The translations under genes and the position numbers were made by a program. A stretch of 64,000 nucleotides of DNA from Halobellus inordinatus (GTDB lineage Archaea > Halobacteriota > Halobacteria > Halobacteriales > Haloferacaceae), in contig NZ_JANHAV010000005.1 of assembly GCF_024464655.1 (NCBI RefSeq), positions 124,001 through 188,000 of the forward strand, written 5' to 3'. Positions 6,262-58,000 of this stretch are shown here, one piece after another. Below the pieces are notes generated by a model that was not told the origin of the DNA, did not search any database, and worked only from the letters and a program-made list of their open reading frames with translations. How positions within the stretch are numbered: the stretch's first letter is position 1; the number at the start of each line of letters is the position of its first letter.

Positions 6262-6384
6262 CATATTCTACCGCACACGACACCACCGACCACCGCGAGC
6301 GGTGCGTCTATCGTGGCCTCGTCGCCATCGCCCGCGCGCCGACAGATGCGTAACGGCTTTGCCGTGGCCTCCCAACACGCGGGT

Positions 6385-6705
6385 ATGGACTGGCCACACG
6401 ACCCCGACGGCGAGCAGGGATCTGAGGGACGACGCAAGTACGGCCACGCGGTGATCGCAAAAAAGGTCGACGAGGACGAGGACTTCCCGCTGTCCCGCGA
6501 GGAGTTCGTCGCGGAGTACGGCGACGACCCCGTTCGACTCGACTACGAGCGCGTCGTCTCCGTCGCTGATATCTTCGAGCACGTCGACCAAGCGGAGTTC
6601 GACGACTTCGTCTCGTTCCACAAGGCCGTCGGTCGCGCGATGCGCGAGAACGGCTACTGGTTCTACGAGGGCGCAGAGAAGTTCGTCGGCTCGAACGAAG
6701 CCTGA
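6385..6705 (+). CDS. Conserved haloarchaeal protein, DUF5785-like
   Basis: This small acidic protein of 106 aa begins MDWPHDPDGEQGSEGRRKYGHAVIAKKVDEDEDFPL and continues with a helical region DYERVVSVADIFEHVDQAEF. The pattern matches what I recall of the haloarchaeal DUF5785 family, whose function is unknown. The ATG at 6385 is preferred over one at 6313 because the intervening segment lacks the acidic bias. The gene is followed directly by the nested inverted-repeat elements. Confidence 0.7.
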   Translation: MDWPHDPDGEQGSEGRRKYGHAVIAKKVDEDEDFPLSREEFVAEYGDDPVRLDYERVVSVADIFEHVDQAEFDDFVSFHKAVGRAMRENGYWFYEGAEKFVGSNEA

Positions 6706-6750
6706 TCGCTGACAGCTGTCGATCGTTTTTCATACTGCCGGACAGAACTA

Positions 6751-6911
6751 TAGCAACATTTGCAACTGATAGGGATTATCGTAACTGTTCGGAGATTCTC
6801 GCCGTATCGTCCGGCGAGAAATCTATGAGGACTTGCGATAACCCCTATGATTGCTCATCCGATCACACGACAGCGTACGATCGGATGAGTGAAGACTTGC
6901 AAATGCTACTA
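6751..6911. mobile_element. Inverted-repeat element A, copy 1, nested in C and interrupted by B
   Basis: The left end TATAGCAACATTTGCAA and the reverse complement of the right end, TATAGTAGCATTTGCAA, match at all but two positions. A TA dinucleotide flanks both sides (6749-6750 and 6912-6913), consistent with a TA target duplication inside element C. Related uninterrupted copies lie at about 36666-36741 and 57837-57920. They share the GTTTGCAA termini and a central palindrome around GATCGCACGAC. Without element B this copy is about 80 bp. Confidence 0.75.
6769..6848. mobile_element. Inverted-repeat element B, copy 1, nested in A
   Basis: The ends ATAGGGATTATCG and CGATAACCCCTAT are near-perfect inverted repeats. 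The interior contains GGAGATTCTCGCCGTA. The 4-base sequence TGAT occurs on both sides (6767-6770 and 6848-6851), so B appears to have duplicated TGAT within element A. A second copy with an inverted interior lies at 57917-58000. No coding capacity. Confidence 0.75.
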
Positions 6912-6973
6912 TATGTGGGAAGTATCGGCACCCCGTGGGTGCCAGATGATTCGTGAACGGCTGTCCGACAGTA

Positions 6974-7195
6974 TCAGGATCCGTCGCCGAAGAGCCGCTG
7001 CCACAGCGACCGATCGCGTGCACGCTCGGCGAGCAGCACCGAGCACTCGACCTCTTCGATGACATCAAGGACGAGCGTAGCCCGCCCGTCGACGGCTGCG
7101 AGGTACGGAAAGACCGCCGCGGCCGTTCGCGCCGCGTCGGCGTCGTTCGAGACGGGGACAAGGGGCCGGGCGAACAGCGGATCGACCTCACTCAT
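6974..7195 (-). pseudogene. UspA-like N-terminal fragment, probably truncated by element C
   Basis: The 73 aa frame begins MSEVDPLFARPLVPVSNDAD and continues AAAVFPYLAAVDGRATLVLDVIEE, like the first strand-helix-strand of a universal-stress-protein domain. UspA domains are about 140 aa, so half is missing. The stop codon TGA (6976-6974) uses the last base of element C, so the frame ends exactly where the element begins. Either the insertion truncated a longer gene or this is a naturally short protein. The family call is tentative. Confidence 0.5.
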
Positions 7196-7376
7196 CGGCT
7201 GGGTGTGTCGACCGCTCGTCGTCCGCCGCGTTCGTTGCGTCCGTCGACGGCCAGCGGGGTGCGAACTGATGGCTGAACGAGACGCGTCGCCGACCGAGAG
7301 GAGGTGTCGTTCCGGAGTGCAATCATACGGGATTCGTATGGCGCCATCGGGTTCCCACTTCGGGTCGCACAACTGT

Positions 7377-36665: not shown

Positions 36666-36741
36666 CAGTACCGTTTGCACCTCACGCGCGATCGCACGAC
36701 AGCGTGTGATCGATGCACGATCGTTGCAAACGCGAACGTTA
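36666..36741. mobile_element. Inverted-repeat element A, copy 2
   Basis: The left end CAGTACCGTTTGCAC and the right end TTGCAAACGCGAACGTTA flank the palindromic interior GATCGCACGACAGCGTG. Both interior and termini match the copies near 6751 and 57837. The right edge reaches the stop codon of the MFS gene at 36739. No coding capacity. The rest of 36346-36665 holds only the promoter of the gene at 36345. Confidence 0.7.
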
Positions 36742-42762: not shown

Positions 42763-43631
42763 ACCGCGCGGAGACGCCCCTCGTCGATCTGCGATGTGAA
42801 GCGCACACGTACCCGGACGGAACAGTCGGAATGCACGACGTCGAGTTCAGCGTCTACCCCGACGAGGTCGTCGCGCTACTCGGCGGGAACGGCGCGGGGA
42901 AGTCGACGTTGCTCGAGCATCTGAACGCGACGCTCGTCCCCGACGAAGGCGAACTCGTGATCGAGGGAACGCCCGTCGCCAACGGCGACGAGCGACGCGC
43001 CCGGAAGACGGTCGGCTTCGTCTTCCAGGACGCAGACGCCCAACTCGTCGCGCCGACCGTCCGCGACGACGTGCTGTTCGGGCTCCAGAACTACGGCGTC
43101 TCGGGCGAGGAAGCGATCGAACGCGCTCGCGACGCGCTCGATGCGGTCGACGCTGGCCACCTCGAAGACCGGATTCCGCACTACCTGAGCGGCGGCGAAA
43201 AACGGCTCGTGGGGCTGGCCGGCGTGCTGGCGCTGCAGCCGAGCGTGATCGTCCTCGACGAACCGCTCGCGGGGTTGGATCCCGAACGCTCTCGGCTGGT
43301 CGCCAGACATATCGAACAGGTCCATAGGGACGGCGTCAGCGTCGTGCTCTCGACGCACGATCTCGACTTCGCGGCCGAGGTGGCAGACCGCGTCTGCGTG
43401 ATGGCCGACGGCAACATCGTCGGCTGTGGGACACCGCGAGAGGTGTTCTACGACGACGAACTGCTTGCGACGGCGAACCTCCACCCTCCGAGTCCAGTCC
43501 GCGTCGCCCGGTCGGCGGGCCTCGACACGTCCGAACGGCCGGTCACCGAGAGCGAACTCGCCGCCGCCATCGCGGACGCGTCGACGACCGATCGAACCGC
43601 CCGCACAGTCGCCGACGGGACGGACGTCTGA
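42759..43631 (+). CDS. cbiO: CbiO/EcfA ATPase of the cobalt/nickel transporter
   Basis: From GTG 42759 the 290 aa ATPase has Walker A GGNGAGKST, Q-loop FVFQDADAQLVAPTV, signature YLSGGEKRLVGLAGVLALQP, Walker B IVLDEPLAGLD and the H-loop in VVLSTHDLDFAAEVAD. A C-terminal extension of about 50 residues ends ...RTVADGTDV. The final A of its stop codon is the first base of inverted-repeat element C, so the original C-terminus may have been altered by the insertion. Confidence 0.93.
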   Translation: MNRAETPLVDLRCEAHTYPDGTVGMHDVEFSVYPDEVVALLGGNGAGKSTLLEHLNATLVPDEGELVIEGTPVANGDERRARKTVGFVFQDADAQLVAPTVRDDVLFGLQNYGVSGEEAIERARDALDAVDAGHLEDRIPHYLSGGEKRLVGLAGVLALQPSVIVLDEPLAGLDPERSRLVARHIEQVHRDGVSVVLSTHDLDFAAEVADRVCVMADGNIVGCGTPREVFYDDELLATANLHPPSPVRVARSAGLDTSERPVTESELAAAIADASTTDRTARTVADGTDV

Positions 43632-43711
43632 TACTGTCGGACAGAACGATGTGAGGCGCATCGGTACCCTGTGGGTGCCGATATGATTCGCGAACTGCTG
43701 TCCGACAGTAT
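43631..43711. mobile_element. Inverted-repeat element C, copy 2 (uninterrupted, 81 bp)
   Basis: ATACTGTCGGAC (43631-43642) and GTCCGACAGTAT (43700-43711) are perfect inverted repeats. The interior matches the copy at 6732-6974. It lies between the convergent cbiO and RimK-like genes, using the last base of the cbiO stop codon as its first base and ending 14 bases before the stop of the next gene. Confidence 0.8.
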
Positions 43712-57836: not shown

Positions 57837-57920
57837 ACAGTAGCGTTTGCAACTGATTACACAGCCGATCGCACGACTGCGTGCAATTCGGTGCGTGAAG
57901 ACTTGCAAACGCAACTATAT
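57837..57920. mobile_element. Inverted-repeat element A, copy 3 (uninterrupted)
   Basis: The left end ACAGTAGCGTTTGCAAC and the right end TTGCAAACGCAACTATAT are inverted repeats around a palindromic interior (GATCGCACGACTGCGTGC). The ends, the GAAGACTTGCAAA motif and the size (84 bp) match the copy nested at 6751-6911. It is directly followed by element B. Confidence 0.78.
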
Positions 57921-58000
57921 AGGGATTATCGTAAGTCCGCATAGATTTCTCGCCGGACGGTACGGCGAGAATCTCCGAACGGTGACGATAAGCCCTATAG
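57917..58000. mobile_element. Inverted-repeat element B, copy 2 (inverted interior)
   Basis: ATATAGGGATTATCG and CGATAAGCCCTATAG are the inverted ends. The interior ATAGATTTCTCGCCGGACGG is the reverse complement of the interior of copy 1, so the two copies lie in opposite orientations. It overlaps the last bases of element A copy 3. Confidence 0.75.

Follow-up and report, generated by a model that had tools for sequence, protein, structure and literature searches.

Successive insertion of three MITE families into one another in Halobellus inordinatus, with target sites of two of them often at gene stop codons

The window analysed here, a stretch of 64,000 nucleotides of a Halobellus inordinatus contig, contains three short inverted-repeat elements nested inside one another: element C (78 bp) is split by element A (80 bp), which is itself split by element B (78 bp). 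The nest had been placed at 6732–6974 by the initial annotation, and its exact span is 6733–6973. Each layer has its own target duplication (TSD), which is TCA for C, TA for A and TGA for B, and the locus reads TCA-C-TA-A-TGA-B-TGA-A-TA-C-TCA. A interrupts C after base 16, and B interrupts A after base 19 (with the TGA target counted). The features of the locus and the other copies in the window are as follows.

6313–6705, + strand: gene of a DUF5785 protein (Pfam PF19098, E 8.8e-52), upstream and convergent; adjoins the empty site in congeners
6730–6732: left TSD of C (TCA), same as 6974–6976
6733–6748: element C, left part, TIR TACTGCCGGACAG
6749–6750: left TSD of A (TA)
6751–6766, + strand: element A, left part, TIR TAGCAACATTTGCAA
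6767–6769: left TSD of B (TGA; target CTGA within A)
6770–6847, + strand: element B, complete, 78 bp, TIR TAGGGATTATCG..CGATAACCCCTA, 75/78 identical to consensus
6848–6850: right TSD of B (TGA)
6851–6911, + strand: element A, right part, end TTGCAAATGCTACTA
6912–6913: right TSD of A (TA)
6914–6973: element C, right part, end CTGTCCGACAGTA
6974–6976, - strand: right TSD of C (TCA), the minus-strand stop TGA of ORF 6974–7372
36667–36733, - strand: degraded A copy, profile score 32.3
43632–43710: free C copy of 79 bp, with a TSD TGA that forms the stop of an ABC ATPase gene ending at 43631
57839–57917, + strand: A copy abutting the next B
57920–57997, - strand: B copy abutting A

Excision of B leaves an A of 80 bp and excision of A leaves a C of 78 bp, close to the approximately 80 bp predicted for each, and the TA duplications proposed on both sides of A were seen at the expected places. 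The ends of the other two elements had to be redrawn. C had been given the ends ATACTG..CAGTAT but terminates in TACTG..CAGTA, flanked by the 3-bp TSD; B had been described as ATAGGG..CCCTAT between copies of TGAT and is indeed present, but its ends are TAGGG..CCCTA (exactly 78 bp) and its TSD is TGA, the fourth base being a chance match. Among the copies in the window that had been regarded as intact, the free C near 43631 was recovered, whereas the A near 36666 proved to be degraded. The A and B near 57837 and 57917 both exist, but as they abut head to tail and have a TA sequence in common, they cannot be treated as independent copies. A similar abutment was observed at C11:167052–167209, and the B copies of both pairs have no clear TNA duplication. 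On a plasmid of Halobellus sp. DFY28 (L212:2985–3145), two A elements stand in direct succession with TA between them, as if one A had entered beside the end of the other.

As the initial annotation had assumed, the boundaries of the elements are fixed by other copies, which are numerous throughout the genome (3.41 Mb, 23 contigs), where A, B and C are all multicopy hairpin MITEs. A fixed-length pattern allowing up to three TIR mismatches matched 79 copies of B of exactly 78 bp and 50 copies of C of exactly 79 bp in this genome, in which the reversed control pattern for B and C had no match; 36 of the 40 pattern-defined copies of A were exactly 80 bp long. An early list of B copies included two spurious rows of 58 bp. 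A profile search of 144 fetched stretches (457 kb) yielded 75 matches for B, 65 for A and 61 for C, with split halves counted. With lengths of 78–80 bp, TIRs of 12–15 bp, a near-palindromic sequence without coding capacity, many fixed-length copies at unrelated sites, and target duplications in 36/50 (A), 63/72 (B) and 53/57 (C) copies, the elements have the properties of MITEs. The nest very probably arose by successive insertion of three unrelated families of non-autonomous, palindromic cut-and-paste MITEs.

The consensus of each of the three families folds as one long hairpin (-42 to -46 kcal/mol) and many copies lie at gene 3' ends, as might be expected if the elements were host signals, such as terminators or 3'-end RNA hairpins, that are preserved rather than just mobile DNA. 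Covariation was mixed and weak, however: the observed counts of doubly changed pairs were reached by 270 (A), 294 (B) and 8 (C) of 300 shuffles, and the corresponding cell counts by 6, 69 and 38 of 300 shuffles, respectively. Moreover, Rfam contained no match, the hairpins of A and C are broken by the nest, and insertion is evident from the TSDs and empty sites. A functional RNA hairpin was rejected on the basis of the Rfam result and the covariation, and a preserved host signal is very unlikely as an explanation of the three families.

An identical 3-bp TSD was found in 63 of the 72 full-length copies of B and 53 of the 57 of C; these counts leave out matches to B or C that were truncated or broken, seven in all. 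The triplet was of the TNA type in all 53 C duplications and in 59 of the 63 B duplications (TGA/TCA in 50, TAA/TTA in 9), so that the exceptions for B comprise nine unequal duplications among the 72 copies and four other triplets among the 63. The TNA was preceded by C in 52/59 B and 36/53 C copies, and followed by G in 40/59 and 27/53, respectively. The target of B and C is C|TNA|G. A lies mostly in C|TA|G, with a perfect TA|TA in 36 of the 50 copies scoring at least 60 and the C..G flank on 55 of 72 strand-pooled sides.

The order of insertion that had been read from the nest, C followed by A and then B, held up: each interruption carries its own TSD, and B is the least diverged of the three elements. 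At the nest, B is identical to its family consensus at 75/78 positions (96%), C at 69/79 (87%) and A, which is a member of a divergent subfamily, at 65/80 (81%). This divergence agrees with the order as regards B, the youngest. In nine of 13 congeners (G014, G010, G012, G008, G003, G015, G006, G002 and G004) both flanks are intact and adjacent without the nest, and in the remaining four of those examined the right flank was not recognised. Since the flanks are joined without the nest in these nine congeners and B is closest to its consensus, the nest is lineage-specific with B as its latest arrival. The evidence supports one insertion after another, first of C, then of A and finally of B.

Nesting is not confined to this locus. 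One CTGA site within A is occupied by B in five loci (C1, C16:311194, C16:442191, C19 in this window, and C21) and by C in one (C21:121245), A lies in B at one TA in two loci here (C11:320773 and C19:54766) and one in a congener (L574), and A interrupts C in three loci (the window, C11:588308 and C20:197603). The identical position of the B-in-A junction in five loci could also mean that A, with a B already in it, spread as one composite unit that then entered C, and two of these loci, C16:311194 and C16:442191, resemble each other in A (94%) as well as in B (95%). However, the orientation of B relative to A in the window and C21 differs from that in both C16 loci and C1, the nearest relative of each of the five nested Bs is a free B, and the same site of A was used by a C element as well. 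The initial annotation had taken an identical A-in-C junction elsewhere as the mark of such a composite; at both C11:588308 and C20:197603, A is inserted at other places in C. The composite reading is therefore largely refuted and highly improbable as an account of the nest; spread as a unit was rejected on the orientations and nearest neighbours of B. Both orientations within A, together with the closeness of nested to free Bs, indicate repeated insertion; what makes nesting recur is that each family bears a target of another, not the transposition of a composite. As a rough estimate, about 1.7% of the non-coding CTGA sites of the genome are used, and the 65 such sites in A would be expected to receive about one landing, versus six seen, so that landing in A is enriched but not extreme. 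A different insert, about 130 bp long and with CACTGAAAC..GTTTCAGTG inverted repeats, splits the A copy at C18:112984–113196 of G000 (L192).

Under successive insertion, C would have entered first, into the TGA stop of a minus-strand gene, where the 3-bp duplication would have restored the stop; A would have followed into a C|TA site within C, and B would have come last, into a CTGA site borne by A. The sequences themselves show the ends and TSDs of the elements, their order, the empty sites and target motifs, and the reuse of the same inner sites; the movers would be unseen transposases of the IS5/PHIS kind acting in trans, IS1031-like for B and C and a TA-duplicating relative for A. The C element of the nest probably sits on the stop codon of a minus-strand gene. 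The minus-strand ORF 6974–7372 has a coding score of 11.6, just below the cut-off of 12 used elsewhere, and the 73-residue C-terminal part had no Pfam match; we infer that it is a real gene.

Landing on stop codons is common in families B and C. The duplicated triplet was the in-frame stop of a coding-like ORF in 27 of the 63 B and 24 of the 53 C copies with identical TSDs, or in 30/72 and 26/57 when all full-length copies in the fetched stretches are counted, with gene calls made by a simple home-made finder. In comparison, 86 of 1741 CTGA sites away from the elements were at stops, and 92 of 946 when the control was restricted to CTGA sites that were non-coding or at stops. Restricting the comparison to sites no more than 60 bp from a gene 3' end still left an over-use of stops, with odds ratios of 3.1 for B (p 0.008) and 2.6 for C (p 0.03). 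The restricted control, these odds ratios and the codon score of ORF 6974–7372 were computed before a correction of flanks that changed the number of identical B TSDs from 62 to 63. Of 23 B copies listed from relatives, 19 were examined and 17 of these were at stops, versus 4 of 105 control sites. One stop-sited B in another genus of the family provides, with its own TGA, the end of a long open frame that is hydrophobic as translated. Where the two TSD copies of a B element differ, the stop copy is intact and the other one changed (L236, L564, L585, L590 and L591, and C2:4499, C11:369004 and C17:264649 of G000). This decay of the non-stop copy looks like selection on the stop copy, an argument that is partly circular through the calling of stops.

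The C|TNA|G rule might make the TGA stop a preferred landing pad at which the TSD restores the stop; insertion would then be silent by design, and stacking of the elements in one another would follow from the same rule. In its boldest form, this proposal has an unseen transposase actively drawn to sites of translation termination; as a whole it is tentative and rather doubtful. Active targeting, for instance by way of terminating ribosomes or the context of gene ends, instead of motif and selection, could draw on the excess that remains near gene 3' ends and on the high frequency of stops among the B copies of relatives. Yet the motif itself reads CTGA and gene ends tolerate insertion, the excess that is left is modest and was obtained with the simple gene finder, and over half of the copies of B and C in this genome lie away from stops. 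Active targeting is improbable on this evidence, and is no longer claimed because the excess fell to about threefold with the control near gene 3' ends. The bias most likely results mainly from a target motif that matches the stop codon combined with the survival of harmless insertions. A habit of landing on stop codons would account for the tolerance of a compact prokaryotic genome to well over 150 MITE copies, and it offers a defined, testable safe-harbour rule (CTGA at a gene end) for an archaeal transposition system.

Several searches were directed at an autonomous partner, which would be expected to carry the TIR TAGGGNTTATCG, TACTGTCGGACAG or TAGTAGCGTTTGCAA. None of the listed exact B or A ends in this genome faced a partner at transposon distance, most of them belonging to short copies, and TIR pattern scans of this genome and the genus revealed no autonomous partner. 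The same was true for 32 congener stretches, 29 around seemingly unpaired or isolated ends and three around known C copies. Of these 29 ends, 27 lay within profile matches for A or B, those at L550 and L570 being partial; the others were one lone B end (L565) and one weakly matched B copy (L566). None of the five transposases of PF01609, the single Pfam transposase family searched, had matching ends in this genome. Three pattern scans of viral contigs gave, among the matches listed, single ends only and no A, B or C profile match; at least five viral loci had two loosely matched ends 434–2690 bp apart. The phage collection gave no match and the plasmid collection three Halobellus records only; in two of the eight possible 50-kb stretches of a Halobellus plasmid, no transposase was among the annotations listed.

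Transposase groups that duplicate TA and are related to IS5/PHIS exist. B and C share with the IS5/IS1031 group and with PHIS (NuwaII) the 3-bp TNA duplication, present in 59/63 B and 53/53 C copies, and the C|TNA|G target. In the sources consulted in part, the IS1031 group is described as preferring TNA with a 3-bp repeat and the eukaryotic NuwaII as using C|TNA|G (PMC12016507, PMC4482050). Unlike A, B and C, these groups are defined by their transposase, and since none with matching ends was found here, the link to IS5/IS1031 is drawn from the duplications. B and C presumably work like elements of the IS5/IS1031 (PHIS) type, without being assigned to that class.

Nested MITEs as such are already known, and landing on stop codons is the unusual feature; no work on MITEs landing on stop codons appeared among the titles and abstract openings surveyed. 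In plant genomes, MITEs occur nested within MITEs, with Tourist-like elements duplicating TNA and Stowaway-like elements TA. The nest resembles these in its layering and in both kinds of duplication, but its host is an archaeon and its elements are far shorter (78–80 bp), and no sequence in common is claimed. The closest precedent for nesting, as far as the part of the source consulted goes, is Haloquadratum walsbyi, where short, transposase-free inverted-repeat elements (MITEs and SMRs) of about 80–110 bp are present in many copies, mobile elements show a strong tendency to insert into one another (192 events counted), and one element group uses a fixed kind of place inside another (PMC3119063). 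Like them, A, B and C are haloarchaeal, short, transposase-free and multicopy, and land in other mobile DNA. The SMRs are described as lacking a target duplication and hitting IS605-type palindromes (PMC3119063), whereas all three families here duplicate TA or TNA and nest mutually, with stop codons of genes serving B and C as targets; the duplications set them apart from SMR-A, and together with the TIRs also from the IS605-related PATEs, which have neither. In this archaeon the order of insertion can be read from the nest, which shows that MITE nesting can arise from target sites borne by the MITEs themselves.

Matches were found in 13 of the 60 genomes searched, including the window's own, and 12 of the 13 belong to the genus Halobellus. 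A divergent C subfamily was observed in the congener G004 (L545, L548, L550 and L557), with ends TACTGTCGGC..GCCGACAGTA and scores of 28–32; three of its four copies (L545, L548 and L557) have identical TNA duplications. A scan of 84,980 species genomes, which may not include those most closely related to the window's genome, recovered B with its two exact ends in two more stretches of DNA, each from a Halovenus MAG (family Haloarculaceae). These B-like elements, L596:3598–3674 (77 bp) and L597:469–546 (78 bp), have exact TIRs and lie away from stop codons without a clear TNA duplication.
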